DNA from: Micromonospora sp. NBC_00421 | GTDB taxonomy: Bacteria > Actinomycetota > Actinomycetes > Mycobacteriales > Micromonosporaceae | Direction: 5' to 3' | DNA: 64,000 nucleotides | NCBI RefSeq assembly: GCF_036017915.1 | Contig: NZ_CP107929.1 | Location: 3,223,501-3,287,500, forward strand | In this document: piece after piece, positions 9,826 to 31,908 of the stretch | Numbering within the stretch: the stretch's first letter is position 1 | Layout: each line of letters opens with the position of its first letter | Made by a program: the position numbers and the translations under genes | The notes under the pieces: model-generated | What the model was told of the DNA's origin: nothing | Seen by the model: only the letters and a program-made list of their open reading frames with translations | Database searches by the model: none

Positions 9826-10494
9826 ATGGCTAATCAGATCGGGGTCGGCCCGGAGCTTCTGGCCTATGTCCGGGAATTCTCGCTCAGAGAGGACGACGTC
9901 CTTCGGGCGCTACGCACGCACACCGGCGAGCTTCCCGGCGGGCAGTCCCTGCAGGTGATGGCCGAGGAGGGACAACTCCTTGCGCTGCTGGTGTCCCTGG
10001 TCGGGGCCACGAGGGTGCTGGAGGTGGGCACCTTCACCGGCTACAGCACCCTGTGCATGGCCCGGGCGCTGCCACCGCACGGCCGGCTGGTGACCTGTGA
10101 CATCAGCGCGCGGTGGCCGGAGATCGGTGCCGAGTACTGGCACCGCGCGGGGGTCGCCGACCGCATCGAGGTACGCATCGGTGCGGCCGTCGAGACCCTT
10201 GACAAAATGCTCGACGAAGGCACCGACAGCAGTTTCGATCTCGTTTTCATCGACGCCGACAAAGCAAACTATCCGCAGTACTACGAATTCGCGGTGCAAC
10301 TCGTACGCCCCGGCGGTCTGGTGGTGGTGGACAACACGCTGTTCTTCGGCCGGGTGGTCGACCCGACCGCCGGTGATCCGGACACCGCCGGGGTGCGGCG
10401 GGTCAACGCCATGATCCGCGACGACCAACGGGTGGATGTGTGTCTGCTTCCAATGGCCGACGGCATCACGTTGGCCCGGCGGCGGGCCGGCTGA
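9826..10494 (+). CDS. galG: O-methyltransferase of methoxymalonyl-ACP synthesis (FkbG type)
   Basis: 222-residue SAM-dependent methyltransferase of the CCoAMT/FkbG family. The SAM motif [12 protein letters not shown] is at residues 64-75, an acidic motif follows in LVTCDIS, the metal/substrate motif is [13 protein letters not shown], and the later motif is LVVVDNTLF. With the FkbH, acyl-CoA dehydrogenase, ACP and hydroxyacyl dehydrogenase genes next door it completes the five-gene set that makes methoxymalonyl-ACP. Its role is methylating the hydroxymalonyl (or glyceryl-derived) 2-hydroxyl on the ACP. It is convergent with galH (43-bp gap), so it has its own promoter. The symbol is by analogy to the galbonolide locus. 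Confidence 0.88.
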
Positions 10495-10537
10495 TCTCCA
10501 CACCGCGGTCCGGCCGGTGGAGGCCGGGTGCGGGCGG

Positions 10538-11647
10538 TCAACCCGCGCCGACGGTCGCCGGGCCGGCCAGGTCGGGGGCGGTCAGGTGGAACGTCGACGG
10601 TGCCGGTTGCCGGCGTGCCGCCAGGTGCAGTCGCTGGACGGCCCGGTCGCTGTCGACGGCGATGCGGTCCCGGCATGCGCAGGGCTCCTCGTCGAAGCCG
10701 GCGAACCGGTAGGCGATCTCCATCATCCGGTTCCGGTCGTTGGGCCGGAAGTCGGCGATCAGGTGCACGCGAGCTCGAGCGGCCTGGTCCACCAGCCAGG
10801 TCAGCAGGACGGTGCCGGTGCCGAAGGACACCACCCGGCACGAGGTGGCGAGCAGCAGCAGGTGCCACACCCCGGGGTGTTTCTCCAGGACCAGCACACC
10901 GACCGCGCCGTGCGGCCCGAACCGGTCGGTCAACGTCGTGACCAGGACCTCGTACCGGGGGTCGGCCAGCAGGGCCCGCAACGCCTGATCCGGGTAGTGC
11001 ACTCCGGTCGCGTTCATCTGGCTGGTCCGCAGGGTCAACTCCTCGACCCGCGACAGGTCTGCGGCGTCGGCCCGCCGGATGCGCATCACCAGTTCCAGCG
11101 AACGCAGGAAGTCCTCCGCCGGGCCGGTGAACCGGGCCTGCTCGTCGGCCCGCCGCTGACCGGCCTGGTACATCTGCCGGCGTCGCCGGGCGTCCACGGT
11201 CACCGACGTCGGAGTGAACTCCGGCCGGTCCAACAGGGCTGTGGCCGCGCTGGCGTCGTAGCAGCGTACCTGCGGGAGGTGGAAGGCGACCTCGGCCCGT
11301 TCGACCGGTTGGTCGTCGATGAAGGCGACGGTGCCGAGCGCGAAGCCCAGCCGGTCGGCGATCCGCTGGACCGCGTCGGACTTGCGTCCCCACCCGATCT
11401 GCGGTGCCACGAAGTACTCGGCGACGCCGAGCGCGCACAGCCGGGCCCAGGCCGGCTCGTGGTCGTTGCGGCTGCAGACCGACTGGAGGATGCCCCGGGC
11501 GTCCAGCCCGGTGATCACCGCCCGGATCGGGTCGGGGAGCACGACCTGTTCGTCCTCCAGCAGGACACCCTGCCAGAGGGTGTCGTCCAGATCCCAGACC
11601 AGGCACTTCACGGTCACGGGTGGGACCGTCGGGACCTCGTCGGTCAC
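10538..11647 (-). CDS. galH: FkbH-like glyceryl-ACP synthase (HAD family)
   Basis: 369 residues. The HAD nucleophile motif is DLDDTLW at 19-25, followed by SVCSRND and a third HAD motif region ending FIDDQPVER. The C-terminal half (about 180-330) is the GNAT-like FkbH domain with RTSQMNATG. FkbH proteins take 1,3-bisphosphoglycerate, dephosphorylate it and load glyceryl onto an ACP, the first step to methoxymalonyl-ACP. The complete set galG, galI, galJ, galK around it favours methoxymalonyl over the alternative fate of glyceryl-ACP, tetronate formation. It lies 73 bp behind galI. Confidence 0.92.
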   Translation of the reverse strand: MTDEVPTVPPVTVKCLVWDLDDTLWQGVLLEDEQVVLPDPIRAVITGLDARGILQSVCSRNDHEPAWARLCALGVAEYFVAPQIGWGRKSDAVQRIADRLGFALGTVAFIDDQPVERAEVAFHLPQVRCYDASAATALLDRPEFTPTSVTVDARRRRQMYQAGQRRADEQARFTGPAEDFLRSLELVMRIRRADAADLSRVEELTLRTSQMNATGVHYPDQALRALLADPRYEVLVTTLTDRFGPHGAVGVLVLEKHPGVWHLLLLATSCRVVSFGTGTVLLTWLVDQAARARVHLIADFRPNDRNRMMEIAYRFAGFDEEPCACRDRIAVDSDRAVQRLHLAARRQPAPSTFHLTAPDLAGPATVGAG

Positions 11648-11720
11648 GTCGACTCCTTCGTGGACTGCCGTTCGTCGGCAGCATGGGATGAGTGGGCGGG
11701 CGATCGGCGCGGCGGTGGGG

Positions 11721-12854
11721 TCACCGGCGGTTCACCGCGTGGTCGGCCAGCATCAGCTGACACATCTCGGTGCTGCCTTCGATGATCTCCATGAGCTTGG
11801 CGTCGCGGTACGCCCGGGCGACGGGGTGCCCGTCGACCGCACCGGCCGACGCCAGGATCTGGACCGCGTCGGCGGCGGCCCGGGTGGCGTGCCCGGCGCT
11901 GACGTACTTGGCCAGGACGGTGGCGGTGACCACTTCGGGTGAGCCGGTGTCCCAGCAGCGGCTGGCGTGCTCACAGACCCGGGTGGCCACCTGCTCGGCG
12001 GCCCACAGGTCGGCCAGGTGCCGGGCGACGAGCTGGTGTTGGGCCAGCGGGCGGCCGAACTGGTGGCGGGAACCGGCGTGTGCGACGGCCGCCGTCAGAC
12101 AGGCCCGCAGGATCCCCACGCAACCCCAGGCGACCGACATCCGGCCGTAGCTCAACGCCGTGGTCACCAGCAGGGACAATGACTGCCCGCCGGCACCGAG
12201 CAGGCTGCTGGTGGGCAGCCGTACCGCGTCGAACCACACGTCGGCGTGTCCGGCCGCCCGGCATCCCAGGGGATCCGCCCGCCGGTGCACCCGTACCCCC
12301 GGGGTGGCCCGGGGCACCACCACCACGGCTCCCTGGTCGCCGAGTCGGGCGAAGACCAGGAGCAGGTCGGCGTGGTCGGCGGCGGTCACCCACACCTTGT
12401 GGCCGTCGAGGCGCAGGGTGTCGCCGGTCATGGTGACGGTGGTGGTCATCGCCGACAGATCACTGCCCGCCTGCGGTTCGCTGAAGGCCACGGCGGCCGT
12501 GTCCGTGGCGGCCAGGCGGGGCAGCAGCGACCTGGCCTGGGCCCGGTCGGCCAACCGTTCGATGGTCCAGGCCGCCATTGCCTGGGAGGTCATGACGCTG
12601 CGCAGGGAGCTGCACAGGCTGCCCACCTGGGCGGTGAACTCGCCGCTGTCCAGGCTGCTCCATCCCGCTCCGCCGTACCCGGTCGGGATCTGGGGGGCGA
12701 GCAGGCCTGCGGTGTTGAGTGCGCGCACCACGTCCACGGGTAGCCGGCCCGCCCGGTCCCAGTCGCCCGCCCGGTCGCCGACCAGGCGGGCGGCGAGCGT
12801 GGCGGCCTGGGCGGGCGTGACGGTGGGCGCGGTGGCGGCGACGGTCTCAGGCAC
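11721..12854 (-). CDS. galI: Acyl-CoA dehydrogenase-like oxidase of methoxymalonyl-ACP synthesis (FkbI type)
   Basis: 377 residues from GTG 12854; the longer frame upstream is the shadow of galJ. The acyl-CoA dehydrogenase fold is clear: N-terminal helical part with IPTGYGGAGW, the middle-domain FAD motif VAFSEPQAGSDLSAM, and the C-terminal helical domain with RHQFGRPLAQHQLV. The catalytic glutamate is in IIEGSTEMCQ. In this pathway it oxidises the glyceryl/hydroxymalonyl semialdehyde chain on the ACP. The start overlaps the galJ stop by 8 bp, so it is translationally coupled. Confidence 0.9.
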   Translation of the reverse strand: MPETVAATAPTVTPAQAATLAARLVGDRAGDWDRAGRLPVDVVRALNTAGLLAPQIPTGYGGAGWSSLDSGEFTAQVGSLCSSLRSVMTSQAMAAWTIERLADRAQARSLLPRLAATDTAAVAFSEPQAGSDLSAMTTTVTMTGDTLRLDGHKVWVTAADHADLLLVFARLGDQGAVVVVPRATPGVRVHRRADPLGCRAAGHADVWFDAVRLPTSSLLGAGGQSLSLLVTTALSYGRMSVAWGCVGILRACLTAAVAHAGSRHQFGRPLAQHQLVARHLADLWAAEQVATRVCEHASRCWDTGSPEVVTATVLAKYVSAGHATRAAADAVQILASAGAVDGHPVARAYRDAKLMEIIEGSTEMCQLMLADHAVNRR

Positions 12855-13149
12855 CGTGGTCGCCGGGTTCGCTGTTGCGGAGCCGGTCGACCAGGGCCAC
12901 CATCCGGCGCACCGTGCGGAAGTTGTCCAACCGCAGGTCGGTGCCGCGCACGGAGACCCCGTACGTCTGCTCCAGGTGCACCACCAGCTCCATCGCGAAC
13001 AGGGACGACAGCCCACCGGTGGCGAAGAGGTCCGTGTCCGGCGGCCAGGTCCGCCCGGTAAGCGCCGTCAGGAAGCGCACCAGTTCCGGCGCGGCGGTGT
13101 CGACCCGGTCACCAGTGTCCGACACCTCCTGGTCGGATGGCACAGTCAT
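12847..13149 (-). CDS. galJ: Discrete acyl carrier protein for methoxymalonyl (FkbJ type)
   Basis: A 100-residue ACP. The phosphopantetheine serine is in GGLSSLFAMELV, where the usual DSL reads SSL, followed by the family helix LVVHLEQTYGV. It carries the glyceryl unit through galH, galK, galI and galG to the methoxymalonyl extender, which is then passed to the PKS acyltransferase. ATG 13149 forms a TGATG junction with the galK stop; a GTG one codon earlier is also possible. It is located between galK and galI with overlaps on both sides. Confidence 0.9.
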   Translation of the reverse strand: MTVPSDQEVSDTGDRVDTAAPELVRFLTALTGRTWPPDTDLFATGGLSSLFAMELVVHLEQTYGVSVRGTDLRLDNFRTVRRMVALVDRLRNSEPGDHGA

Positions 13150-14039
13150 CACAGGTCTCCCTCGTAGTGGTAGAAACCCCGTCCGCTCTTGCGGCCGAGG
13201 TGGCCGGCCCGGACCTTGGTCAGCAGCAGCTCACAGGGGCGGCAGTTCTCGTCGCCGGTGCGTTCGTGCAGCACCCACAGGGAGTCGACCAGGTTGTCCA
13301 GGCCGATCAGGTCGGCGGTGCGCAGCGGACCGGTCGGATGTCCCAGACATCCCTGCAGGAGTTTGTCGACGGACTCGACGCTTGCCGTGCCGGCGGCCAC
13401 CACCCGAACCGCACTGTTGATCATCGGGTGCAGGATCCGGCTGGTGACGAAGCCCGGCGCGTCCTCGACCACCACCGATTCCCGGCCCAGGGTGGTGAGC
13501 AGCCCGCGTACCGCGTCCAGGGTGTGCGGACCGGTACGTGGGCCGCGGATCACCTCGACGGTCCGGATCAGGTAGGGCGGGTTCATGAAGTGGCTGCCGA
13601 TCAGGTCTTCCGGTCGTGCCACCGACCGGGCCAGTTCGCCGATGGGGATCGAGGAGGTGTTGGACACCACCGGGGTGCCTGGTGCCACCAGGGCGGAGAC
13701 GTCCGCCAGCACCTTCGCCTTGGCGTTGGGGTCCTCGGTGACCGCCTCGACCACCGCGGTGAGGGTGCCGGTCCGCCCTGTCGAGACGTCCGCGAGGGAC
13801 ACTCCGACGTCGAGCAGGCCGGGTCGGGTGCCCTCCGGTAGGGCACCCATCAGCCGGGCCGTCCGGACCTGCCGGTCGACCCGGTCGGTGGCCTCGGCCA
13901 GGCGACGGCGGTCGACGTCGATCATGGACACGGCGATCCCGTGCCCGATCGCCAGTGCGGCGATGCCCGTCCCCATCACTCCCGCGCCCAGCACCGCCAG
14001 TCGTTGCGCGGCACCCGGCGTGGTGTTCTGCCCCGCCAT
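13149..14039 (-). CDS. galK: 3-hydroxyacyl-CoA dehydrogenase-like enzyme of methoxymalonyl-ACP synthesis (FkbK type)
   Basis: 296 residues from ATG 14039 (AAGGGAG 7 bases upstream; a longer frame to 14075 lacks a ribosome site). The NAD motif is VLGAGVMGTGIA, followed by the family pattern VSNTSSIPIGELA, the catalytic His context GSHFMNPPYL, and C-terminal domain signatures GFVTSRILHPMINSA and GRKSGRGFYHY. It oxidises glyceryl-ACP to the 2-hydroxy-3-oxo stage. It starts 61 bp after the galE stop and is coupled to galJ. Confidence 0.92.
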   Translation of the reverse strand: MAGQNTTPGAAQRLAVLGAGVMGTGIAALAIGHGIAVSMIDVDRRRLAEATDRVDRQVRTARLMGALPEGTRPGLLDVGVSLADVSTGRTGTLTAVVEAVTEDPNAKAKVLADVSALVAPGTPVVSNTSSIPIGELARSVARPEDLIGSHFMNPPYLIRTVEVIRGPRTGPHTLDAVRGLLTTLGRESVVVEDAPGFVTSRILHPMINSAVRVVAAGTASVESVDKLLQGCLGHPTGPLRTADLIGLDNLVDSLWVLHERTGDENCRPCELLLTKVRAGHLGRKSGRGFYHYEGDL

Positions 14040-14100
14040 GAGGGTCTCCCTTCGTTGCCGAGACGGCACCGACACGGTTCACAGGCCACGGTGGCCACGG

Positions 14101-15309
14101 TCACACCCCGGAACGGCCGGCCTTCCGTTCGTCGACGGACGATCCGTTGGCGACCGGCCAACCGTTGACAACTGACGATCCGTTGACAGCCGGCACACCG
14201 TTGGCGGCCGGCGAACCGTTGGTGATGGACGTCCCGGTGGCGGCGGCGTCGGTGGGATCGCCGGACGGGGTGGGGTCGGTGTAGAACTGCCGCGCCCACT
14301 GCCGGTACCGCCCGATCGGGCCGTCTCCCCGGGCGAGCTTCGGCTGTTCGACGTGCTCCTGGTGGTGCCACATCAGCAGGTCCGCGCCGGTGTCGACCGA
14401 GGCCACCCGTTGGGCGATCGCGCCGAGCAGCCGGGCGACGGGCATCGCCGTCGCGCGGGCGGCCCGCTCGGGCAGGAACGGCAGACCGGCCAGCTCCAAC
14501 TTGGTACCGAACCGCAGTTGGATCCGACCGGCGGTGGTCGGGGTCGCGTGCAGCATGACGTGGAGGTCGCCCGCGCCGTTGGGCAACCGGGTGCGGGCCG
14601 CGATGGTGGCCAGTCCGATCACGGTGAGGGTGTAGGACTGGCGGCTCTGGCGCATGACGGTGCCCCGGGCGGTCGCGGTGACCGTGCTGATCGGCTCCCC
14701 CATCACCGGTGCCCCCTCGATGACCAGGTCCCGCAGCCCGTGCAGGGCCGGGAGGTGCCCCCAGTCGAAGGCGTTCTCGATGACGTCCTGCGGGTGACCG
14801 GCGATGTCGAAGGTGTTGTGGCTGAAGGGTTGCCGCTCGTCCATGCCGAAGATCGGCACCTGCCACTGCGGTGCGAGGCCGAGCGCGTGCCGCCACACGT
14901 AGATCGACCCGTTGGCCTCGCAGACCGGGAACTGGGTCAGGGTCGCCTTGGGCGGCGGCAGGTCGTACCCGGTCCGTACGCAGGCCCCGGAGGGGTCGAA
15001 GGCGAACCGGTGGAAGGGACAGACGATCTCCTCACCTTCGAGTGTTCCACCGACGCCCAGGTGCGCCCCGAGGTGGGGGCAGCGTGGGCGGACCGCACGC
15101 AGCAACCCGCGGGGAGTCCGGTAGACGACCACCTCGCCACCCATGAACGGGCGGGTGGTGATGGCCCCGGGGCGGACCTCGTCGGAGAAGGCCACGCAGA
15201 ACCACCCGTTCGGGTCGGGACGCGTGGGCGGGTGGAGCCGGTCGGCCGGTGCGGCGGTGTGCCGGCGGATCTCACGGTTACGGAGCAGCTGTTTGACCAG
15301 CGACCTCAT
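14101..15309 (-). CDS. galE: Rieske-type non-haem iron oxygenase with repetitive C-terminal tail
   Basis: 402 residues. The Rieske [2Fe-2S] ligands are CPHLGAHLG and CPFHRF (about residues 76-105), the CxH...CxxH pattern. The mononuclear iron site follows as ENAFDWGHLPALHG, with the Asp/His-x4-His pattern of the KshA/oxygenase superfamily. After about residue 350 the domain ends and a low-complexity tail begins that contains a six-residue repeat. In the galbonolide cluster GalE is the Rieske protein adjacent to the P450. It probably performs a late oxidation of the macrolactone and needs external ferredoxin/reductase. It begins 10 bp after the P450 stop. Confidence 0.88.
   Translation of the reverse strand: MRSLVKQLLRNREIRRHTAAPADRLHPPTRPDPNGWFCVAFSDEVRPGAITTRPFMGGEVVVYRTPRGLLRAVRPRCPHLGAHLGVGGTLEGEEIVCPFHRFAFDPSGACVRTGYDLPPPKATLTQFPVCEANGSIYVWRHALGLAPQWQVPIFGMDERQPFSHNTFDIAGHPQDVIENAFDWGHLPALHGLRDLVIEGAPVMGEPISTVTATARGTVMRQSRQSYTLTVIGLATIAARTRLPNGAGDLHVMLHATPTTAGRIQLRFGTKLELAGLPFLPERAARATAMPVARLLGAIAQRVASVDTGADLLMWHHQEHVEQPKLARGDGPIGRYRQWARQFYTDPTPSGDPTDAAATGTSITNGSPAANGVPAVNGSSVVNGWPVANGSSVDERKAGRSGV
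14131..14220 (-). repeat. Five 18-bp repeats coding a hexapeptide in the GalE tail
   Basis: The tail of the Rieske protein is built of five hexapeptides that each begin Asn-Gly (NGSPAA, NGVPAV, NGSSVV, NGWPVA, NGSSV-). The Asn codons are exactly 18 bp apart from 14220 to 14148. The copies differ by point changes, so the repeat is not newly formed. It lies outside the catalytic domain and is probably an unstructured tail. Confidence 0.85.
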
Positions 15310-15319
15310 GGTTGTTCTC

Positions 15320-16771
15320 CTAGTGGGCGACCGGGCAGGCGTCAGGGCCCGGTCCGGGGGTCGACGGAACGGGTAGTGGCTGCGACGTGGCGACCGGCGG
15401 CGCGTCGGTCCCGGAGGTCTCCGTCCGACACCGCAGCCGCAGGCGCAGCCCGCGGGAGCTGAGGCTGGTTTCCACCTTGGGTCGGAAGGGTTCCTCGCCG
15501 ACAGGGGACAACTCCCAGCGGGCCGCCACCGCGGTCAGGGCCAGGATCGCCTCGGTGAGCGCGAACTGGTCCCCGATGCACTTGCGTGCGCCGGCGCCGA
15601 ACGGGACGTAGCCCGTCCGGTCGGGTGAGGTGCCGCGCCAGCGGTCCGGGTCGAAGCGGTCCGGGTCGGCGTACAGGTCGGGGCGCCGGTGGATCAGGTA
15701 CGGGCTGAGCACGAGGGTGTCGCCGCGTCGTAGCCGTACCCCGTCGAGTTCGGCCTCCTGGGCGACGGTGCGGGTCATCATCCAGGCCGGCGGGTAGAGC
15801 CGGAGGGTTTCGGTGACCACCCGGGTCGCCAGGTCGAGTCGGGGCAGGTGTTCGGGGCCGGGGAGCGCGCCTGCCAGGACAGTGTCGGTTTCGGCCTGCA
15901 GTGCGTGTTGGATTTCCGGATGGGTGGCCACCAGGTGCAGTGCCCAGGCCAGGGTGATGGCGGTGGTCTCCATGCCGCCGAGGAAGAAGGTGAGGGCCTG
16001 GTCGGCCAGTTCGGCGTCGCTGAGCCGCTGCTCGTGGTCACGGCTTTCCACGTCGACGGCCGCGACCAGTGCGGAGAGCAGGTCGGCGTGGTCGGTGGGG
16101 TCGGCCCGGCGGGCGGCGACGATCTCGGTGATGGTGGCGAAGAGCCGGGCCCGGGCCTGGTCGTAGCGTCGCTTGGCGGGGGTAGGTAGCCGGCGCATCA
16201 GGGCCGGGGTCATCATCCGGCGGAAGAAGGCGCTCACCACGGTGTTGGTGTCGGCCAGGGCCCGGCGGAGGGTGTCCGCGGGGAGGGACCCGCTGAACAT
16301 CGTCTCCATGGTGGCCTGGGTGGTCAGCGTCATCATCTCCCGGGTGACGTCGAGCACCTGACCGTCGTGCCAGGAGCCGGCGGTGGCATGGGAGGCCCGG
16401 CCGAACACCGCCGCGTACCCGTGTAGGCGCTGTGGGTGGAACGACGGTTGGCACAGTCGTCGTTGTCGCCGGTGCAGCGGGTACGGGCAGGTGGACAGCC
16501 CGTCGCCGATGACCTCCCGGATCCGGTCGTAGATCGGGCCGCCCTTGTCGAAGGTCCGGTCGTTGACGAAGATGTGCCGGGTCAGGGTCGGGTCGCAGAT
16601 CAGCACTGCGGAGGTCGGGCCCAACCGGACCCGCACCATCCTGGGGTAGCCGGCCAGGGAGCGGATGAAGGCCAGCGGATCCCGCAACAGGGGCAACGCG
16701 TGTCCGAGGAGCGGCAGTGCGCCTGGTGCCAGGGGAATCGACGCGGTGGTCGTCGTAGTCGTCTCGGTCAT
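15320..16771 (-). CDS. galD: Cytochrome P450 acting on the galbonolide-type polyketide
   Basis: 483 residues. The I-helix oxygen motif is GGMETT, the K-helix ExxR is in ETLRL, the PERF-like region is DRFDPDRW, and the haem-binding loop is FGAGARKCIGDQFA with Cys398. The sequence resembles class CYP110/fungal-like bacterial P450s with an LLGHALPLLRDP N-terminus. In S. galbus (from memory) a galD mutant accumulated an under-oxidised galbonolide C, so this enzyme is expected to install hydroxyl groups and allow formation of a double bond. It starts 3 bp after the galC stop. Confidence 0.92.
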   Translation of the reverse strand: MTETTTTTTASIPLAPGALPLLGHALPLLRDPLAFIRSLAGYPRMVRVRLGPTSAVLICDPTLTRHIFVNDRTFDKGGPIYDRIREVIGDGLSTCPYPLHRRQRRLCQPSFHPQRLHGYAAVFGRASHATAGSWHDGQVLDVTREMMTLTTQATMETMFSGSLPADTLRRALADTNTVVSAFFRRMMTPALMRRLPTPAKRRYDQARARLFATITEIVAARRADPTDHADLLSALVAAVDVESRDHEQRLSDAELADQALTFFLGGMETTAITLAWALHLVATHPEIQHALQAETDTVLAGALPGPEHLPRLDLATRVVTETLRLYPPAWMMTRTVAQEAELDGVRLRRGDTLVLSPYLIHRRPDLYADPDRFDPDRWRGTSPDRTGYVPFGAGARKCIGDQFALTEAILALTAVAARWELSPVGEEPFRPKVETSLSSRGLRLRLRCRTETSGTDAPPVATSQPLPVPSTPGPGPDACPVAH

Positions 16772-16774
16772 GGG

Positions 16775-17794
16775 TTACCTCGTTCTCCGGTCTGGCGTCG
16801 TCGCACCGGGCGGTGGGCGGGTGATCTCGAGCAGGGCGGTGGTCCAGCGGAAGCCGAGGCCGAAGCTCACGACGAGGACGTGGTCCCCGACCCGCAGTGC
16901 GCCGGTGCGGAACATCCGGTCCAGGGCGAGCAGCACGTCGCAGGGGCCGGCGTGGCCGAGGTGGCGGCCGAAGGTCCAACTGCTGTCGGTGGCGCGGCGG
17001 TGCAGCGGGGGTCCGGAGAGCACCAGGTCGAGCACGGCTGACCCGATCGCGATGGCCACCACGTGCGAGATGTCCGCCGCTGCCAGGCCGGTCTCGCCGA
17101 GGACGGTGTCGACACAGTGCCGGGTGCGGCGTTGAAGTGTCCCGATGTGCGGCAGGAGTCCGGTCTGTTCGGCGAGGAACCGTCGGCCGTCGCCGGCGGC
17201 GGTGCCCTGCTCACCGGCGCGGGTCAGCACCTCCAGCTCCGGTTCGGTGGCTTGGGCGGTGGCCAGCAGCCGGGCGAAACCGGTGCCCCGGGTGAGCACC
17301 GCGGCGGCGCCGGCGTCACCGGCGACGTAGCCGATGTCGCGGACGTGGCCCCACCGCTGGTGGGGGAAGCGGGCTCCGGCGGTGACCAGGGCCGCCGGGG
17401 CGGTGGGTTGGGCGGTGAGGTGTTCGGCTGCGGTGACCAGGGCGGCCGCGCCGCCGTCACTGGCCGCGCCGATCTCGATGCCGGTGGTACGGGTGGCTCC
17501 GAGGACCCGCAGCAGGTACGGCGCGGGCGTGTAGTGGTCCTCGTCCTGGAAGGTGGCGTGGGCCAACAGGCTCACGTCGGCGCTGGGGACCTCGGCGTGG
17601 CGCAGTGCCAGCAGGGCGGCCCGGGCCGCCATCTGGGTCGCGGTCTCCCCGGTCGAGACCGCCGCCGAGGTGAACCCGTTGGCCGCCGCCATGGACGACG
17701 GACCGGCCTGGGTGCCGCCCCACGGGTCCTGCTCAGGTCGGATCGGGGGTATCCAGGAACCGGTTCCGGCGATCGTGATGTCGTGCCACAACAC
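16775..17794 (-). CDS. galC: KASIII-like protein with serine at the catalytic cysteine position
   Basis: 339 residues from GTG 17794, with GAGGAG 6 bases upstream and 17 bp after the galB stop. The thiolase fold is recognisable from the FabH-like N-terminus (ITIAGTGSWIPP) and the core strand with the nucleophile elbow IGAASDGGAAAL. The nucleophile position is Ser112. The usual catalytic His (HQAN-type) and Asn (GNTSAA-type) segments read IAIGSAV and LGHAGPC, so the normal Cys-His-Asn triad is absent. Ser-type KASIII relatives such as DpsC, and KASIII-like acyltransferases such as CerJ, prime chains or form esters. GalC may therefore prime the PKS or close the lactone. Which one is not shown by the sequence. 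Confidence 0.85.
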   Translation of the reverse strand: MLWHDITIAGTGSWIPPIRPEQDPWGGTQAGPSSMAAANGFTSAAVSTGETATQMAARAALLALRHAEVPSADVSLLAHATFQDEDHYTPAPYLLRVLGATRTTGIEIGAASDGGAAALVTAAEHLTAQPTAPAALVTAGARFPHQRWGHVRDIGYVAGDAGAAAVLTRGTGFARLLATAQATEPELEVLTRAGEQGTAAGDGRRFLAEQTGLLPHIGTLQRRTRHCVDTVLGETGLAAADISHVVAIAIGSAVLDLVLSGPPLHRRATDSSWTFGRHLGHAGPCDVLLALDRMFRTGALRVGDHVLVVSFGLGFRWTTALLEITRPPPGATTPDRRTR

Positions 17795-17811
17795 CGCTGT
17801 CTCCTCGGCTG

Positions 17812-20800: not shown

Positions 20801-23727
20801 TAGACGCTGGTGCCGAAGCCCCGCAAGTCGTAGTAGTTGGCGGCCCGGCCGGACAGGATGCAGGAGACGGCACCGGTGAAGTCGTCCTCGTTGAGCTCGT
20901 CGGGTATGACGTCGCCGGCGTCGGCGAGCGCCTTGGCGAGGTATTCCCGCAGTGTCTGGGCCTGCCCGGGGTCGGGTAGCAGGTCGAACGTCGAGGCGCA
21001 CTCCTGCGCGTGCACCCGTAGGGCGGCGCGGGCGTTGTGCGTGGTCGGCAGGCTCGCCCCCACCAGGATCGCGGTGGTGGGTCGCAGTGCGGTTCCCGGC
21101 TCACCCAGGTCGGCCAGGAGCGGCCCGAGGGCTTGGAGCATCATCAGGTGGGCGGGGTCCATGTGCCGCATCGTCCGGGGCGGGATCCGCACGTCGAGGG
21201 GGGACGGCAGCGGGTACGGGCTGCCGAAGCTGAGCTGCGGGGCCGGGCCGTCGCCGACGAGCCAGCCGGGCACCCGGTCGCGGTCCAGGCCGGGCAGGTG
21301 GGTGCTCCAGCCCACCACGACCAGGTCCTCGGTGTCCGGGGTGCGGTCGGGCACCGACGGTCGGGGCGCGGGTCGGGTCGACGGCACCCGGTCGGCGAGC
21401 ACCACGTGGGCGTCGGCTCCCCCGAGGCCGAACGAGGACACCCCGACCATCCGGGGGCGGGCCTCGTCGACCGGCCAGGGCGCATCGGTGACCGGCACCG
21501 TCAGTCGGGTGCCGTCGCCCAGCAGCGGGTGGGGATCGGTGACCACGGTGTGGCCGGGAATCGTGCGGTGGGCGAGGGCGACCAGTGCGTGCGCCACCGA
21601 CACCAGCCCGGCCAGGACACCGGTGTGGCCGAAGACCTGTTTGTTCGACGTCAGCAGGCACGGCCGGTCCCGCTCGCCCAGTCGTGACAACAGGGAACGT
21701 AGTTCCACCTCGTCACCGACGGGGGTGCCGGTGCCGTGGGCCACCACCCAGTCCACGTCGGAGGCGTCGACGCCGGCGTCGGCCCAGGCCCGGCCGATCG
21801 CCAGTTCCTGTCCCCGGGTGGCCGGGGCGTGGATGCCCTTGCCGCGGCCGTCGGCGGCCAGTCCGGTGCCGAGGACGACGCCGTGGATGTGGTCCCCGTC
21901 GGCCACCGCGCGGGCGTACGGTTTCAGCGCGAGCATGACGGCGCCCTCACCGATCAGTGTCCCGTCGGCCGCCTGGTCGAAGGGGCGGATCCGGCCGCTG
22001 ACGGTGATTCCCTGGGCCCGGCAGAACAGCGTGAAGCCGATCGGTTCGATCACCGACGTGCCGCCGACCAGTGCCACGTCGCAGCTTCCCTCGCGGAGGG
22101 CCTTGACGGCGGCGTCGAGACAGAACAGGCCGGTGGCGCAGGCCGCGTCGAGGGTCAGGTGTTGGGCGTCGCCCGGGATCAGCCCGCGTAGCGCGTTGCG
22201 GGAGACCGAGGCGGGCAGGTAGGCCAGCGGGTTGCCGCCGTCGCCGCCGTAGTGGGCGCTGATGGCGTGGTCGGCGAGTTCGGCCAGCCAGTCGTCGCCG
22301 CCGCTGCTCTGGATGGCGTCGCGGATCAGGCGTTGGTACTCGTCGCCGAGGACGACGCCCTGGGTGCCGAGCCCGGTCTGGTCGTGGATGCCGGTGGTCG
22401 CCGCCAGCCACCGGTCGCCGGGCCGGCGGCGCACTCCGGCCAGGGCCTGGACGGTGCAGTGCCGCAGCCACCGGGTGGTGCGTGGCCAGCCGGGGTGTCC
22501 CAGGAACCCGTCGGGTTCGGTGATCGAGGCGGGGTCGGGGACGAACCCCTGCACGTAGCCGGCTTCCCGGATGTAGAAGCTGTCGGTCTCCGCCGCGCTG
22601 GCCGACCAGAAGTGCCGCAGGTCGAACGCGGACGGCTCGCTGGCCAGCAGGACGCCCTCCCGGAGCCGGTCGTAGAGTTCGGCGGGGTTGTTGGCGCCGG
22701 GCAGGACCACCCCGAGGCCGACCACCGCGATGGCATCCGGGTCCTGCTCGGCGGGGCCGGTCTCCGGTCGGCGCGGCTGCGGGTCGCGCACCGGGCGTGG
22801 TGTCGCGGCGGCGGGGGCCGGTTCGGGTACGACGACGACCTCGGTGGTCGAGGGGTGCGCCTCGGGTGCCCTGGCTGCTGCGGTGGGGCGGACCGGTGGG
22901 GTTCGGGTGGGCACACCGACCTGCGCGGCGAGTTTGCTGTGCAGTCGCAGACTCTGCATTCCGCCGATGCTGATGCCGCCGTCGGCGACGAGGGTCTGCC
23001 CGGTGATGAATCCGGTGTCCGGGTGCAGGAGGTGGACGAGCAGCCGGGCCGCTTCGGGGGTGGAGATGGTGCGGCGCATCAGGTCGCTGGTGCGCGGCGA
23101 GTCTCCGAGCGCGGCGGCCGGGTCGTCGAGGTTGACGACGATTTCGCTGGCCACGGAGCCCAGCAGCACGGTGTTGACCCGGATGTCCTGGTCGGCCAGT
23201 TCCAGCGCCAGGTACCGGACCAGGGACTCCAGGGCGGCCTTGGTGACGCCGCCGGGGCCGTACCCGGGGACCGGCTGGTGGGCGCCGACGCTGGACAGAC
23301 AGAGGATGGCTGCTCCCGGGCGGCCCACCATCAGCTCGGCCGCCCGGCGGGAGCAGTGGTACGCCCCCATGACGTTGGTGGACCAGGCCCGCTGCCAGTA
23401 CGTGTCGTCGACGTCGAACAGGGGCAGGAACGCGCCGCCGGCCGCGTTGTTGACGAGGAAGTCGAGGCCGCCGTGCCGCTGCCGGACCAGGCCGAACATC
23501 CGGTCGATCTCGGTGCGTTTGGCCACCGAGGCCCGGATGAACTCCGCGCTGAGGCCGGCCTCCGCCAGCTCGGTGCGCAGCAGTTCGGCCTGCTCGACGG
23601 AGTGGAAGTAGTTGACGACGACGTGTGCGCCGCAGGTGGCCAGTCGACGGACGATGTCCGCGCCGAGGCTCTTGGCCGCGCCGGTCACCAACGCGATCCG
23701 ACCGTGCAGGCTTGGCGTGTCGGTCAT
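17812..23727 (-). CDS. galB: Iterative type I polyketide synthase: ENR-KS-KSbeta-KR-DH
   Basis: 1971 residues from ATG 23727, which overlaps the galA stop (ATGA). Order of domains: FabL-like enoyl reductase, 1-255 (TGAAKSLGADI; Y156-x6-K163); linker; ketosynthase, about 333-790 (Cys530 in DAACATG, His664 in AHGTGTP, His701 in FGHTG); degenerate second ketosynthase, about 797-1210, without the cysteine (Arg979-Asp980 there); ketoreductase, about 1345-1640 (GGARGITPEL; Tyr1541-x3-Asn1545); double-hotdog dehydratase, about 1680-1971 (His1699 in HxxxGxxxxP; Asp1875-x3-His). No AT or ACP is present; both are in GalA. The KS-CLF and KR type recalls PUFA synthases. One module must act repeatedly to build the whole chain. 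Confidence 0.92.
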   Translation of the reverse strand: MTDTPSLHGRIALVTGAAKSLGADIVRRLATCGAHVVVNYFHSVEQAELLRTELAEAGLSAEFIRASVAKRTEIDRMFGLVRQRHGGLDFLVNNAAGGAFLPLFDVDDTYWQRAWSTNVMGAYHCSRRAAELMVGRPGAAILCLSSVGAHQPVPGYGPGGVTKAALESLVRYLALELADQDIRVNTVLLGSVASEIVVNLDDPAAALGDSPRTSDLMRRTISTPEAARLLVHLLHPDTGFITGQTLVADGGISIGGMQSLRLHSKLAAQVGVPTRTPPVRPTAAARAPEAHPSTTEVVVVPEPAPAAATPRPVRDPQPRRPETGPAEQDPDAIAVVGLGVVLPGANNPAELYDRLREGVLLASEPSAFDLRHFWSASAAETDSFYIREAGYVQGFVPDPASITEPDGFLGHPGWPRTTRWLRHCTVQALAGVRRRPGDRWLAATTGIHDQTGLGTQGVVLGDEYQRLIRDAIQSSGGDDWLAELADHAISAHYGGDGGNPLAYLPASVSRNALRGLIPGDAQHLTLDAACATGLFCLDAAVKALREGSCDVALVGGTSVIEPIGFTLFCRAQGITVSGRIRPFDQAADGTLIGEGAVMLALKPYARAVADGDHIHGVVLGTGLAADGRGKGIHAPATRGQELAIGRAWADAGVDASDVDWVVAHGTGTPVGDEVELRSLLSRLGERDRPCLLTSNKQVFGHTGVLAGLVSVAHALVALAHRTIPGHTVVTDPHPLLGDGTRLTVPVTDAPWPVDEARPRMVGVSSFGLGGADAHVVLADRVPSTRPAPRPSVPDRTPDTEDLVVVGWSTHLPGLDRDRVPGWLVGDGPAPQLSFGSPYPLPSPLDVRIPPRTMRHMDPAHLMMLQALGPLLADLGEPGTALRPTTAILVGASLPTTHNARAALRVHAQECASTFDLLPDPGQAQTLREYLAKALADAGDVIPDELNEDDFTGAVSCILSGRAANYYDLRGFGTSVYAHRDSTHSALDLALRQLRHRACDLALVGAVSLRPISGWDRHLDTLVPAGRSVAEGAAVVAVARRSTAREYGLPILGTLATAPEGTADDPAHTLPAPAGTDRTYLALDALLAVLRAVVTGTDTVVSPAAPGSPSIRFTGPTGSGPDPGGAVPEPAEQPIGRRQTLQLRPLTPPDPDGPAIPAGSIVLTDAADLAAAVTGPDIAVWSPRPGVDAATHVPPDAAADALADLPFVPRHIRILTRLETPDGGADDIEAARLEDLQDLAFTTIQAALPALRAGGSLAALLLAALPQGTTHPLAGLFSGLVRSVRAEVPQCSGNTLITDASQAPTALAQLARAATARVPTHTLACHGQTWSELAVADDEARPHRTAEPTLPPGAIVVAFGGARGITPELLDAVARTTDRPHLYLVGRTLLPETDDELPPQAEFIAAGRREHPDASVRELKTAYERAQARLEVRRTVHRLAELCGPDRVHHRVCDVLDADRTRAVLDEVMDRHGRIDLLINTVLDLRSRALHAKTLVDFRAVRATKATGYRNLKRALAGRPPRTWCNFSTLATLAPAPGDVDYCAVNEYLAYASAWADRHAPEGHRELAILWSGWREVGVASSAAMQETLRRNRMDAYISSRQGAAQFLDAVTRPGSGAAVFYIREEERVLLGQRGISTDTTSGRLPLPVPDAPPPTPPDPSLATPLLDGVLLRGRRWAVFTKTWEPHTLAEQDGRWMRHHRVNGEYVLPGTFALEAAAGAAGHLCPDLVVTGFRDLVCRTSVTVRSAGPPRTITVQARLTDRSPDRAVVTVRITTNRVGRNGKVLRFDDLLCETTVVLADRHPALPAPTDQVAHRPEPDFTMPVYSADLPITLSGPFAGTSGYARGPDGTSATFRLDHEAWSPALAGMTVPAILLDAMVHLLLLPPHGDRPPLVGPMAGIEAVDLGGPGNDCQLSAAHPTIRLHCRFADGALTASTTDGHVLARITGVSAHATDHSGRLIRPHADIPQPALP

Positions 23728-25226
23728 CGGGCGGTCGCCTCCCCCCGGGCCTGGACGACGGCTTGCGCGATCCGCCCCAGGGTGCCGACGGTCAGCAGGG
23801 AGGTGTTGGCCCGCAGGTCCGGCAGGCCGTACCGGTCGGCGACCCGGCCGAGGAGGGCGACCTGCTTGAGTGACTCCACGCCCAGGTCGGATTCCAGGCC
23901 GTCGTCGTCGCCGAGCAGCTCCGGCGGATAGCCCAGGTAGTCGCCGTACAGGGCCCGGATCTCGGTCAGCACCACCGCGTACTGCCCGTCGGCGTCCGAC
24001 GCGGACGACAAGTGGTCCACGGTGGCCGGGGAGGCCGGCGTCACCGGTGCCTGCGGGGTCGGCGGCGCCAGGACGGACAGGACAGGCGGCGTCGGGGCGA
24101 TTGGGGCGGGCAGGACCTCCGGGGCGCTTGGGGCAGCCGGGACCGCAGCCGCCGGGACGGTCGGGACCGCCGGGACCGCCGGGGCGGGTGTGGTCGCCAC
24201 GGGTGGCGGCAGCACGAGGGTGGGAGCCGGTCGAACCGGGACAGGTGGCGACGCCGGCGTCCGTACCTGCGGTGACACCGTTTCGGTGCGGCCGGCGACC
24301 AGCGCCCGGACCGCCGCGACCGGGTCGTGTTCGCTCAGCGGAACGACCGACTGGATGCCCGGGACCGACGCCTCGACGAACCGGGTGACGACCGGCCACT
24401 CCCCGCATTCGATGAACGTGTCCGCGCCGGCGGCGTGCAGGGCACGCACCGTGTGCAGCATCCGGACCTGGGCGGTGAGCGCGCCGGCCACCAGCTCGAC
24501 CGGGTCCTCGTCGCCGATGTCCCGGCCCAGCCACGGTGAGGACACCCGCCACCGTCCGCCGCCGTAGGACACCCGGGGGGCGGTGGCCAGCAGGTCCCGG
24601 GCGGCCTGCGCGACCGCCGGGGTGTGGGTGGGGTGCGGAACGTCGAGGCGGACACTCGACCAGCCGAGTGCCTCGGCCACCCGCTCCGCCTCGTCGATCT
24701 GCCGTCGCGGACCGCTCAGGACACTCTGCCGGGGTGTGTTCTCGCAGGCCAGCACCAGGTGCGGGTGGCCGATCAGCCCGGCGAGTGACCCCGCGCGGCG
24801 GCCGTCCACCCCGACGGCGAGCATCGTGCCCGGCCACGCCTGCCGGGTCAGTGCCCGGGACCGGGCCACCGCCAGGCGCGCGGCGTCGCCCACCGACACG
24901 TGCCCGGCGGCGGCCAGGGCCCAGAGTTCCCCGATGCTCTGTCCGACGATCGCCACCGGTTCGACGCCCTCGGCGACGAGCAGGTGGTACGTGGAGAGGC
25001 TGACCGCGAAGATCTCCAGGTACTGCACCTCGGGGCTGTAGGGGCGCCCACCTGCCACATCCTCGATCAGACGGGTGCTGATGTCGGGCAACCCCAACTC
25101 CCGGGCCGCCTTGTCGATGCGGGTCAGTGCCTCACGTACCGTCTCGTAGCGGCTGTGCAGGTCACGCAGGATGCCCGTACGGGGAGCAGCCACTGTGCCG
25201 GGCATGACGAAGACAGAATCCACCAT
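23724..25226 (-). CDS. galA: Acyltransferase-ACP subunit of the iterative PKS
   Basis: 500 residues from ATG 25226 (GAGGG upstream); the frame open to 25463 has no support. Residues 1-285 are an acyltransferase with nucleophile Ser97 in GQSIGE (family usual GHSxGE). The specificity position before the catalytic His reads HPTH, neither the malonyl HAFH nor the methylmalonyl YASH form. A Pro/Ala/Val-rich linker (about 295-410) joins it to one C-terminal ACP with Ser452 in GVESLKQVALL. It must feed GalB with methylmalonyl-CoA and, at one step, methoxymalonyl from GalJ. The stop overlaps galB, so the two subunits are probably made in equal amounts. Confidence 0.9.
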   Translation of the reverse strand: MVDSVFVMPGTVAAPRTGILRDLHSRYETVREALTRIDKAARELGLPDISTRLIEDVAGGRPYSPEVQYLEIFAVSLSTYHLLVAEGVEPVAIVGQSIGELWALAAAGHVSVGDAARLAVARSRALTRQAWPGTMLAVGVDGRRAGSLAGLIGHPHLVLACENTPRQSVLSGPRRQIDEAERVAEALGWSSVRLDVPHPTHTPAVAQAARDLLATAPRVSYGGGRWRVSSPWLGRDIGDEDPVELVAGALTAQVRMLHTVRALHAAGADTFIECGEWPVVTRFVEASVPGIQSVVPLSEHDPVAAVRALVAGRTETVSPQVRTPASPPVPVRPAPTLVLPPPVATTPAPAVPAVPTVPAAAVPAAPSAPEVLPAPIAPTPPVLSVLAPPTPQAPVTPASPATVDHLSSASDADGQYAVVLTEIRALYGDYLGYPPELLGDDDGLESDLGVESLKQVALLGRVADRYGLPDLRANTSLLTVGTLGRIAQAVVQARGEATAR

Positions 25227-25374
25227 GTGCGTCACCCTCGTTTCCGTCCCGGTGAACGGGCTCTGGCGCGCCGTGCCGGCGCAGGGACAATCGACGACGT
25301 GCGGCCTGCGGGTCCGGATGGACCCTGCGGTCACCCCGGCCCGGACCGCCCGGCCGGGGCAGGTTCCCGGCCGG

Positions 25375-25611
25375 CTATTCCGCGATCCGCGACCGGTACG
25401 CCCAGCGGAAGACGAGCGGCTCACCGTCGCCGTCGTCGGGGCGTTCGAAGTGCTCGTAGCCACCGTGGTGCGGGACCTTCACCTTCGGTGCGTCCGGCGA
25501 GATCCGTTGACTGCGAAGCTCGGGCGGAAGGCTCGCCGGGCCGCCTTCGAGTGCGATCACAACGGTGGTGCGGGGGGTTGTGGTGTCGTCCGGCTGGGGG
25601 GACACGGTCAT
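25375..25611 (-). CDS. Small DUF5988-like protein
   Basis: 78 residues from ATG 25611, supported by GGGGGAGG about 10 bases upstream. It shows the pattern ALEGGPASLP near the N-terminus, then KVKVPHHGGYEHFE and a C-terminal aromatic-rich FRWAYRSRIAE. I recognise this as the small DUF5988 type found as single short genes in actinomycete secondary-metabolite clusters. No function is known to me. It lies between the LAL regulator and galA on the same strand (81 bp and 148 bp gaps), so it may be co-transcribed with the PKS. Confidence 0.72.
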   Translation of the reverse strand: MTVSPQPDDTTTPRTTVVIALEGGPASLPPELRSQRISPDAPKVKVPHHGGYEHFERPDDGDGEPLVFRWAYRSRIAE

Positions 25612-25692
25612 GCGGATAGCCTCCCCCGGGATGACGAACGAGACATGCGTCAGTTGACCCACAAAACCGACCCGGTGTCGCCGAGTCATCCG

Positions 25693-28563
25693 TCATCGGG
25701 AACCCGCGTTGCGTAGCACCTCCCGGGCGATCTGGTTACGGCTGCGCAGCCCGAGCTTGTGCAGGGCGCGGGAGATGTGCGTCTGGACCGTCCGGCGGGT
25801 CAGGAGCATCGCGGCAGCGATCTCGGGCGTCGAACGGCCCTCGGCGACGAGGACGGCGACGCGCCGTTCTGTGGCGGTGAGCGCCGCCCAGCCCGACACC
25901 GGCCGGGCCGCGCGGGGGCCGCTGACCCCTCGGCGTACGCCCCTGCCCCGCAGCCGCGCCTCGGTGCGCCGGACGTCCCAGGTCGCGCCCATCCGGGTAT
26001 ACAGGCCGACCGCCTCGGTGGCGGCCGCCCGGCACTCGGCGGTCGCGCCGTGGCCGGCCAGCACCACCGCGAGGTCCTCAAGTGTCGCCGCCAACTCGGT
26101 CCCGGGGCCGGCCGACCGGTAGTGCTGCACGGCTGTGCGCAGCGGCTCGGGGTCCTCGGTGGCGAGGCCCACGCAGCGCTGCCGCATGGTCGCGGCCCGC
26201 CCCGGCGTCTTCTCGGCCTCGGTCCAGACCCGCGTCCGTTCGAGGGCAGCCGTCACGGTCGAGGAATCCGTGCCGGCCGACGCCATCCGGATCAGGTCCG
26301 CGAACCACGGATGGTGGGGCCCCGTCCCGGAGTCGGGTCGGTGCTGCAGCATCGTGGCGAGCAGGGCGGCGCCCCGTTCCGGTTCGCCCCGCTGTTCGGC
26401 GTGCACGGCCCGGGCGGCGAGGAGGAAGCCCTCGCTGTCCTCGTCGATGCTGCGGTCGGCCGGCGCGTCCGGGTCAGAGCGCAGGTGCGCCTCGGCGAGC
26501 GCGCGGTCGTCGCGCCGGACGGCGATCAGCGCGGTGACGCCCCGCCGCAGTAGCGCAGGCCCACCCCGGTGCAGACCCGGATAGAACGGCCCGCAGGGGT
26601 CGTCAGCCACCGGGACCAGTGCCGTCAACGCCTCGTCCCAGCGGCCGACCCAGTAGTGCAGCATCGCCTCGGTGACGCCGATGGACCCGGCGGCGACGTC
26701 GTGTGCCCGGCGACGGATCTCCCGGGACAGCCGCAGCACCCGTTCGGCCTCCCTCCACCGGGCCATGTTCTGCAGGCTCACCACGCGGCAGTGCAGGGCG
26801 AACATCTCCAGTTCCGGGTGGTCGGGGTGACCGACGAGGGCGGCGAGCGCCTGTTCGGCGTACCGCAGTGCGGCCAGGTGGTCACGCCGGTCGGAGCGGG
26901 TGAGGGACAGCACGACGCTGGCGCCCGCGATGGCGCAGTCGTCGCCCGATCGGCGACCGGCGTCGAGGGCCTCACCGGCCAGAGCCTCGGCTTCGTTCGG
27001 CCCGCCGGTGCCGGCCCGGCTGATCAGGGCCAGGGTGCTCAGAAGACGTCCGCGCCACGGTTCGGGTATCGCCTGTCGGGTGAGCACCTGCCGCAGGATC
27101 AGTTCGGCCTCGTCGGTCTTCCCGCTGTTGTTGAGCGCACGGATCAGCAGCCAGTGCAGCTCGCCGTGCGCGTCCAGCCCGGTCGACGACGCGAGGGCCT
27201 CGCGGGCCCGGTCGGCGGCCTCCTCCCACCGGCCCAACAGCTGTAGTGAGCGGGCCAGCGCAACGCTCAGCGAAGCCTGGTGCGGGTCCTTTGCCGGAAG
27301 CTGTCCGAGCTGTGCGCGCAGCAGCCGGACCGTGAGTCCCGGGTCGGCGTCCGCCAACGCGTGGACGGACCTGTGGAGCCAGTCGGGCACCCACCGGTTC
27401 TCGACGCCGCCCGCCGCCACCAGTTGGTGTGCCACGGTGAGCGGTTCGGCGGCTGCGGCGGCCAACTCCTGGGCCAGGTCGAGGTGCAGCGCCCGGCGCA
27501 ACGGCAGCGCGACGGCGTCGTACAGGGCCTGGCGGATCAGCGGATGGCAGAAGGTCATTCGTTCACCGGTGCCGGCGAGGATCCGGGCCGCGACGGCCCG
27601 CTGCAGCACGTCGGCGAGGACCCGCACCGGCCGCCCCAGCACGACACTCAGGTCGGTGACGGTGAACTCGGTGCCGAGTAGTGCGGCGGTCCGCAACACG
27701 TCCCCGGCGTCCGGCACCAGACCGAGCCGGCTGGTCAACGCGGCGGTGAGGGCCGGAGGTATCCGGTCGTCGTCGTCACGCAGGTCCGCGTGTCCCGCCA
27801 CGACCTGGACCAGGTCCTCCCGCACCAGGACGTCGGCCAACTCACGCAGGTAGAGCGGGTTACCCACCGCCGCATCCGACCACCGGCTGAGGGTCGGGCC
27901 GGGCGGCGCTCCGAGCAGCCCGGCCAGCAGCTGCGAGACCTCCGCTTCGTCCAGCGGCACGAGGCACAGCAGGTGTTCGTGGCCCCGGCCGGCGTTGGCC
28001 GGGGTACGGGCCGGACGGGACGGGTCCTGACTGTGCGCGGCGACCAGGAGTAGGGGCAGATGCTCGGTGCTCGCGGCCAGGCGCCGCCAGACCACTGTCG
28101 ACGCCTCGTCCATCCAGTGCGCGTCGTCGACGATCAGGACGGTGGGGCCCGCCGTACACAGGTCGTCGACCAGGGAGACCAGCATCTCGGCCACGGCAGC
28201 CAGGGCCGGCCCGTTGGCGGGGAAGACCGGCGGTTGGCCGACCAGGGTCTGGGTGATCTCCGCCCGGGACGGGTCGCCCGGCCGCTGCCGGACTCCGAGG
28301 CAGGCGAGCAGGACGCTCAGTGGTGACTGCTGGGAGAGTTCGTCGGCGACGGCGTGGAACACCTGGTAGCCGCGGGCGGCTGCGGCCCGGGCGGTGATGG
28401 TGAGCAGTGCGGTCTTGCCGATGCCCGGCTCACCGACCAACCGGAGCACCGAGCCGGTCCCCCGCGCCAGCCGGGTCAACGCTGTCTGCGTGAGGCTCAG
28501 CTCACGCGCTCGCCCGACCCATACCTCGGACCCGGACTCCGGGCCTATTCTCAGCATTCCCAT
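25693..28563 (-). CDS. LAL-type LuxR family pathway regulator
   Basis: 956 residues from ATG 28563; an upstream GTG at 28635 would add 24 residues of no evident domain, and neither start has a strong ribosome site. The N-terminal AAA-type ATPase has Walker A GEPGIGKT at 44-51 and Walker B TVLIVDDAHWMDEAS. A long TPR-like helical middle follows. The C-terminal LuxR helix-turn-helix reads LTATERRVAVLVAEGRS and TRRTVQTHISRALHKLGLRSR. Large ATP-binding LuxR proteins are common activators of polyketide clusters, and this is the only regulator inside the cluster block. It is upstream of the small ORF and galA on the same strand. Confidence 0.9.
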   Translation of the reverse strand: MGMLRIGPESGSEVWVGRARELSLTQTALTRLARGTGSVLRLVGEPGIGKTALLTITARAAAARGYQVFHAVADELSQQSPLSVLLACLGVRQRPGDPSRAEITQTLVGQPPVFPANGPALAAVAEMLVSLVDDLCTAGPTVLIVDDAHWMDEASTVVWRRLAASTEHLPLLLVAAHSQDPSRPARTPANAGRGHEHLLCLVPLDEAEVSQLLAGLLGAPPGPTLSRWSDAAVGNPLYLRELADVLVREDLVQVVAGHADLRDDDDRIPPALTAALTSRLGLVPDAGDVLRTAALLGTEFTVTDLSVVLGRPVRVLADVLQRAVAARILAGTGERMTFCHPLIRQALYDAVALPLRRALHLDLAQELAAAAAEPLTVAHQLVAAGGVENRWVPDWLHRSVHALADADPGLTVRLLRAQLGQLPAKDPHQASLSVALARSLQLLGRWEEAADRAREALASSTGLDAHGELHWLLIRALNNSGKTDEAELILRQVLTRQAIPEPWRGRLLSTLALISRAGTGGPNEAEALAGEALDAGRRSGDDCAIAGASVVLSLTRSDRRDHLAALRYAEQALAALVGHPDHPELEMFALHCRVVSLQNMARWREAERVLRLSREIRRRAHDVAAGSIGVTEAMLHYWVGRWDEALTALVPVADDPCGPFYPGLHRGGPALLRRGVTALIAVRRDDRALAEAHLRSDPDAPADRSIDEDSEGFLLAARAVHAEQRGEPERGAALLATMLQHRPDSGTGPHHPWFADLIRMASAGTDSSTVTAALERTRVWTEAEKTPGRAATMRQRCVGLATEDPEPLRTAVQHYRSAGPGTELAATLEDLAVVLAGHGATAECRAAATEAVGLYTRMGATWDVRRTEARLRGRGVRRGVSGPRAARPVSGWAALTATERRVAVLVAEGRSTPEIAAAMLLTRRTVQTHISRALHKLGLRSRNQIAREVLRNAGSR

Positions 28564-31896: not shown

Positions 31897-31908
31897 CCTT
31901 AGCAATTG

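Follow-up and report, generated by a model that had tools for sequence, protein, structure and literature searches.

Identity of the galbonolide-type cluster

We analysed a stretch of 64,000 nucleotides of contig NZ_CP107929.1 from Micromonospora sp. NBC_00421 (positions 3,223,501 to 3,287,500; the whole stretch is called the window) and find that its positions 9713-28661 almost certainly hold a complete, probably functional gene cluster of the galbonolide/rustmicin type. Gene content, gene order, protein identities and intact catalytic motifs are read directly from the DNA, and from these we infer the biochemical steps and the product. Galbonolide (rustmicin) is an antifungal compound. The cluster type is already known, and the Micromonospora locus adds another representative.

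Both strands of 5-34 kb were read for gene calling, and the proteins were scanned with Pfam and NCBIfam. From high to low coordinates, the minus strand encodes a LuxR/LAL-type regulator, GalA, GalB, GalC, a cytochrome P450, a Rieske oxygenase, a 3-hydroxyacyl-CoA dehydrogenase (HADH), a discrete acyl carrier protein (ACP), an acyl-CoA dehydrogenase and an FkbH-like protein. A preliminary description of positions 9826-28563 had named an acyltransferase (AT)-ACP gene, a ketosynthase (KS) gene, a P450, a Rieske protein and the full methoxymalonyl-ACP set, all of which are found by Pfam/NCBIfam where it had placed them. Its polyketide synthase (PKS) subunits A-C are borne out as well, including galC (16775-17794), which encodes a protein resembling beta-ketoacyl-ACP synthase III (KAS III) and was absent from the parts it had seen directly. 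The extent it gave is close to the stretch (about 9713-28661) over which the DNA aligns with that of M. antibiotica and M. matsumotoense, and the genus it had proposed agrees with the cluster-bearing genomes of Micromonospora, which match named Micromonospora loci. Passages of PMC9054317 and PMC10669366 (rustmicin and galbonolide B) also state, as it had said, that rustmicin comes from Micromonospora.

For comparison, a contig scan of genomes returned 22 loci. Nineteen of them (L009-L027) are galbonolide loci; the other three (L028-L030) are similar, at 26-30% identity, to the region of a short-chain dehydrogenase/reductase (SDR) only. A protein search with GalB residues 790-1340 retrieved the Streptomyces galbus entry E5DHQ1 (P0117), named 'beta-ketoacyl synthase'; its name and homology suggest that the published galB most likely encodes it. 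GalB is 71% identical to E5DHQ1 over 1,716 aligned positions and 73.9% identical over 1,924 positions of a multiple alignment. By domain, the values are 81% for the SDR, 81% for the KS, 74% for a second KS, 62% for a linker stretch, 78% for the ketoreductase (KR) and 73% for the dehydratase (DH). GalB is a single-module PKS homologous to that of S. galbus; galA, galC, galD (P450) and galE (Rieske) lie next to galB in order, and the five-gene methoxymalonyl-ACP set for galbonolide A is present (FkbH, ACP, acyl-CoA dehydrogenase, HADH and an O-methyltransferase, OMT). All ten functions of galABCDE and galGHIJK are found in order. The proposed match with the S. galbus locus holds, i.e., we see neither low protein identity nor a different gene set. 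Gene order is the same in 19/19 fetched loci up to contig ends, with some methoxymalonyl genes absent in four. The shared gene order and strands in the relatives, the 71% identity of GalB to the S. galbus protein and the 78% identity of the HADH to a UniRef cluster with the name GalK place the match far beyond chance.

According to a passage of PMC11074319, galbonolide B can be made with galABCDE alone, and A requires galGHIJK. PMC11463028 reports that a gbnB knockout abolished galbonolide detection in Streptomyces AgN23, says that the distribution of galbonolide clusters among actinomycetes remains to be determined, and cites a title (Kim 2014) according to which the galbonolide synthase produces the macrolactone with a single module.

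Some observations weigh against the assignment. About 26-29% of the aligned positions differ between GalB and the S. galbus protein, and given this divergence a difference in methylation or reduction from the S. galbus product is possible. Moreover, no thioesterase family match (Pfam/NCBIfam) was obtained among the eleven annotated genes of the conserved block, which leaves product release unexplained. We nevertheless regard it as very improbable that a single-module PKS of this kind here assembles some other, related macrolactone that deviates in chain length, methylation or oxidation pattern. GalB homologues with similar domain order and 32-44% identity do exist elsewhere, presumably with other products, and the Micromonospora loci form a separate branch on the tree; yet identity to the S. 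galbus protein is 71-74%, the assigned domains reach 73-81% with the linker stretch alone at 62%, and the accessory gene set is the same, with no sign of an additional tailoring gene within the conserved block. A cluster that is silent or newly inactivated in the source strain would fit the mobile-element and island DNA surrounding it, but this appears unlikely, given that all frames are open, the catalytic motifs are intact and nucleotide identity with two other species is 97-98%.

Among known systems, the gal/gbn clusters of Streptomyces galbus, LZ35 and AgN23 share galA-E and the methoxymalonyl-ACP genes (the sequence was compared for S. galbus), whereas the Micromonospora version differs in its adjacent LAL regulator and its location at a tRNA-Pro hotspot. 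Two further likenesses are by description: the Pseudonocardia Ae717_Ps2 iterative PKS cluster, an earlier galbonolide-like mention outside Streptomyces (in a passage of PMC5183585), and a weak antiSMASH galbonolide match (10% similarity) for a Micromonospora aurantiaca genome in a table of PMC7375171. Rustmicin has been reported from Micromonospora; here, a complete cluster is available in a one-contig genome, together with four sibling loci to compare.

The single-module synthase GalB

GalB (17812-23727, 1971 aa; minus strand, like all genes below unless stated otherwise) starts with the SDR (22954-23727), whose best PDB match is the enoyl-ACP reductase FabL (3oic, E 4e-36). It carries Y156(x)6K163, i.e., the spacing also present in the FabL chain of the printed alignment. 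This Y(x)6K spacing is kept in 19/19 loci/window sequences with the region (L015 begins after it) and in 54/54 aligned proteins (4/58 are without the region). The SDR is predicted to be an enoyl reductase which, in contrast to FabL, forms the N-terminal part of a PKS.

The active KS (21358-22734; PF00109/PF02801) has Cys530, His664 and His701, which are conserved in 20/20 loci/window sequences as well as in 58/58 aligned proteins. It is accompanied by the KR (18808-19692; PF08659), with a conserved Ser/Tyr/Asn motif, and the DH (17815-18765; PF21089), with His1699 and Asp1875. The KS, KR and DH motifs of the window are intact; in eight Streptomyces loci, the Pro of the DH motif is replaced by Ala.

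A second KS-like domain (20383-21330; residues 800-1115) was identified as a second PF00109 stretch and has Arg979 in place of the nucleophilic Cys. Its nucleophile column is without Cys in 58/58 aligned proteins, nine of them remote (32-44% identity). A profile comparison with the first KS gave a probability of 96.5 and an E-value of 9e-10, over 86 columns only, and the search against PDB sequences returned only a weak match to a DEBS KS (E 4e-6). From sequence alone, we predict a structural or chain-length partner resembling a chain-length factor (CLF). A point against this is that the AlphaFold model of KS and second KS has a mean predicted local distance difference test score (pLDDT) of 40.6, too poor to use. 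An arrangement like the KS-CLF of polyunsaturated fatty acid synthases was considered on the basis of published text, and PfaA-type NCBIfam matches are far below cut-off. The region that joins the second KS to the KR gave no similarity to KR or KS in a profile comparison.

Nine GalB-like synthases with 32-44% identity (P0129-P0137; from Catenulispora, Amycolatopsis, other Streptomyces and further sources) also have a nucleophile-less second KS and, in 6/9, the N-terminal SDR, which points to a wider synthase family.

GalC as a putative starter loader

GalC (16775-17794; GTG start inferred) resembles KAS III with a DpsC-type triad, Ser112-His281-Asp286. The Cys-His-Asn triad of FabH-type enzymes is not found: in 41/41 GalC proteins, the nucleophilic Cys is Ser, the first His is absent and Asn is His. 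DpsC, which primes the type II PKS of daunorubicin, has the fold and the Ser-His-Asp triad in common with GalC; excerpts of PMC12664062 describe how its triad S118-H297-D302 moves an acyl group to an ACP. The two proteins differ in that identity is about 32% and GalC adjoins a single-module type I PKS. On this basis, GalC is probably a DpsC-like starter loader, i.e., a predicted starter acyltransferase. Speaking against it, GalC lacks the first His of FabH-type enzymes, which at that place is found in DpsC as well.

Alternatively, GalC could be the releasing enzyme, a CerJ-like O-acyltransferase closing the macrolactone. We consider this rather doubtful: CerJ matches GalC in sequence with E 5e-20, but DpsC is ahead with E 6e-31, and the CerJ nucleophile is a cysteine (Cys116 according to the title of entry 3t5y), whereas GalC has Ser throughout, as in DpsC.

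GalA, oxidation enzymes and methoxymalonyl genes

GalA (23724-25226, 500 aa; Acyl_transf_1 and PP-binding in Pfam) combines an AT with Ser97/His201 and an ACP with Ser452; these motifs are conserved in 18/18 sequences, with L015 and L022 cut by contig ends. The P450 GalD (15320-16771; PF00067) and the Rieske oxygenase GalE (14101-15309; PF00355 and the KshA-type C-terminal domain PF19298) have their heme-Cys motif and Cys/His cluster ligands, respectively, conserved in 20/20 sequences.

The methoxymalonyl set consists of the FkbK-like HADH GalK (13149-14039; PF02737/PF00725), the FkbJ-like discrete ACP with the phosphopantetheine site GGLSSLFAMEL (12847-13149; PF00550), the FkbI-like acyl-CoA dehydrogenase (11721-12854, start codon inferred; PF00441/PF02770/PF02771), the FkbH-like glyceryl loader (10538-11647; TIGR01686, E 3e-100) and the FkbG-like OMT (9826-10494, plus strand; PF01596, E 4e-67). 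Wherever the OMT gene was found in a locus, it lies on the opposite strand.

Proposed biosynthesis

In the pathway we propose, Ser112 of GalC would accept a short CoA-bound acyl starter and pass it to a carrier protein, while the AT of GalA would supply extender units and its ACP would carry the chain. GalB would act iteratively: the KS condenses, KR and DH process the beta-carbon and the FabL-like SDR reduces the enoyl intermediate, with the second, nucleophile-less KS as a putative structural or chain-length partner. FkbH, GalK, the acyl-CoA dehydrogenase and the OMT would build methoxymalonyl on the discrete ACP, which may then deliver it in one round to yield galbonolide A. Galbonolides A and B differ by this one extender, i.e., methylmalonyl in that round leads to B. 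The P450 and the Rieske enzyme are expected to oxidise the product. The comparison yields three directly testable predictions on programming: priming by an enzyme of the DpsC type, a pseudo-KS as partner of the active KS, and an ACP on which it depends whether a strain can use borrowed methoxymalonyl.

Retention of the discrete ACP in reduced loci

The part we consider most worth following is the fate of the discrete ACP. Comparison with the relatives suggests that the ACP of the galbonolide cluster is irreplaceable. We read the loci of 24 relatives, i.e., the 19 galbonolide loci and five more found among 392 sampled Streptomyces genomes (GalC in 11, six of them already among the 19). All five methoxymalonyl genes are present in 16/24 loci, L023 is without the OMT, and seven loci are reduced: five (L015, L044, L045, L046, L047) have none of HADH, acyl-CoA dehydrogenase, FkbH and OMT, L024 holds relics of these enzymes, and L016 is missing FkbH and OMT only. 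The ACP, in contrast, is full-length with GGLSSLFAMEL in 7/7 reduced loci and is present with GGLSS(L/I)FAME in all 24 (for the intact locus L025, the N-terminus was cut in extraction). Because the HADH sits between Rieske and ACP in intact loci, gene loss or decay has affected either side of the ACP in 6/7 reduced loci. In a phylogeny built from GalC, P450 and Rieske, with weak support at some nodes, the reduced loci occupy four places (L015/L044/L045/L047; L024; L016; L046), which corresponds to at least four losses, three of them two-sided. A further sample of 150 genomes gave 3 matches, all previously seen loci, and the matches listed in literature searches on galbonolide and related topics include no title on this retention pattern.

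The reduced genomes also tend to hold a second methoxymalonyl set. In 7/7, a further FkbH lies either on a different contig or at a distance of 287 kb or more; in six, the fetched stretch with an open FkbH also has OMT, acyl-CoA dehydrogenase and ACP, and in five it has part of the HADH. The 1.5-kb flanks of FkbH in the seventh genome (G165) showed no OMT. As background, FkbH occurs in 38/199 sampled Streptomyces, seven of which bear galC, so that 31/192 remain among the galC-free genomes. Fisher tests of the reduced genomes against the latter give p-values of 6e-6 when the 7 genomes are counted and 9e-4 when the 4 events are. A second FkbH occurs in 2/13 Streptomyces whose loci are intact or nearly so (p 5e-4), and the five Micromonospora genomes have a single FkbH each, except for a remote 46% copy in G088.

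Some or all of the enzymes disappeared on at least four occasions in genomes with a second FkbH set, and the ACP is retained in every one of the 24 loci. The simplest reading is that the discrete ACP is a pathway-specific handle which must match the synthase, with methoxymalonyl enzymes that would be replaceable in trans. The stronger form of this reading, to which we give even chances, makes the stand-alone ACP a sixth essential gene for galbonolide A: it alone would dock on GalA/GalB, and the enzymes would be interchangeable and could be borrowed from unrelated clusters. If true, strains described as 'only galABCDE' could still make galbonolide A. An alternative is a core role of the ACP, e.g., taking the starter from GalC. 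Several points count against the handle reading: the p-values flatter, as related genomes are non-independent; large genomes hold more clusters; the L016 loss is on one side of the ACP only; and two FkbH copies of G337 and one of G270 contain a stop, with other copies open in each genome.

Separately, the methoxymalonyl genes of L023 (Streptomyces antioxidans), which come without a detected OMT, suggest hydroxymalonyl use or an OMT elsewhere.

Conserved block and distribution

The conserved block (9713-28661) is 97.7% identical to M. antibiotica (L009) over 19038 bp and 97.0% identical to M. matsumotoense (L012) over 19073 bp; for the likewise colinear loci of M. wenchangensis and M. rosaria, nucleotide identity is 88-91% and 76-83%, respectively. 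Outside the block, the flanking DNA differs between the window and the four named Micromonospora loci compared with it, except for short matching pieces just past 28661, which measure 765 bp in M. antibiotica (ending at 29415) and 152 bp in M. matsumotoense. Within the genus, GalC (scored at E <= 1e-60) is carried by 5/160 genomes, counting the source strain.

Inside the block lies the LuxR/LAL-type regulator (25693-28635; AAA_16 and GerE in Pfam), which is found at the same position with 65-97% identity in 4/4 Micromonospora loci. The 15 Streptomyces loci gave two partial matches only (26% and 33%), elsewhere in the locus, where three of the 15 have little or no upstream sequence. The regulator is a neighbour of the cluster in the Micromonospora loci, without comparable match in the Streptomyces loci read, and control is possibly different.

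Genomic setting

At the edge of the conserved chromosome lies a tRNA-Pro(GGG) (31908-31982, minus strand) with a tyrosine recombinase beside it (30712-31824, plus strand; PF00589, E 2e-19). M. antibiotica and G086, a close relative that lacks GalC, are homologous to the window across der and tRNA-Pro, as far as the 3' end of the tRNA. The distance from tRNA-Pro to the cluster start is about 3 kb in the window versus about 52 kb in M. antibiotica. At the same tRNA, G086 has a different recombinase, 26% identical to that of the window, and the latter is not matched anywhere in the 80 kb of M. antibiotica that were read. No second attachment repeat is seen in the window, and the 12 matches in the genome include no clear partner.

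The tRNA-Pro site looks like an integration hotspot. We also considered a mobile element carrying the cluster and rejected it, since no second attachment repeat was found and the recombinase is without match in the 80 kb of M. antibiotica; we thus retain the hotspot only.

Past tRNA-Pro(GGG), downstream of der, the DNA differs in all three species compared (window, L036, L038), and in two of the three the recombinases beside tRNA-Pro are only distantly related. Near the low edge of the cluster, a transposase-like helix-turn-helix protein is encoded at 8342-9151. Finally, 15 kb before the window start, G000:C1:3041512-3208481 contains thirty-two consecutive KS domains in very long frames of up to 10307 aa. 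By description only, this array resembles the quinolidomicin cluster of Micromonospora, for which a passage of PMC9054317 gives over 200 kb and 34 modules.

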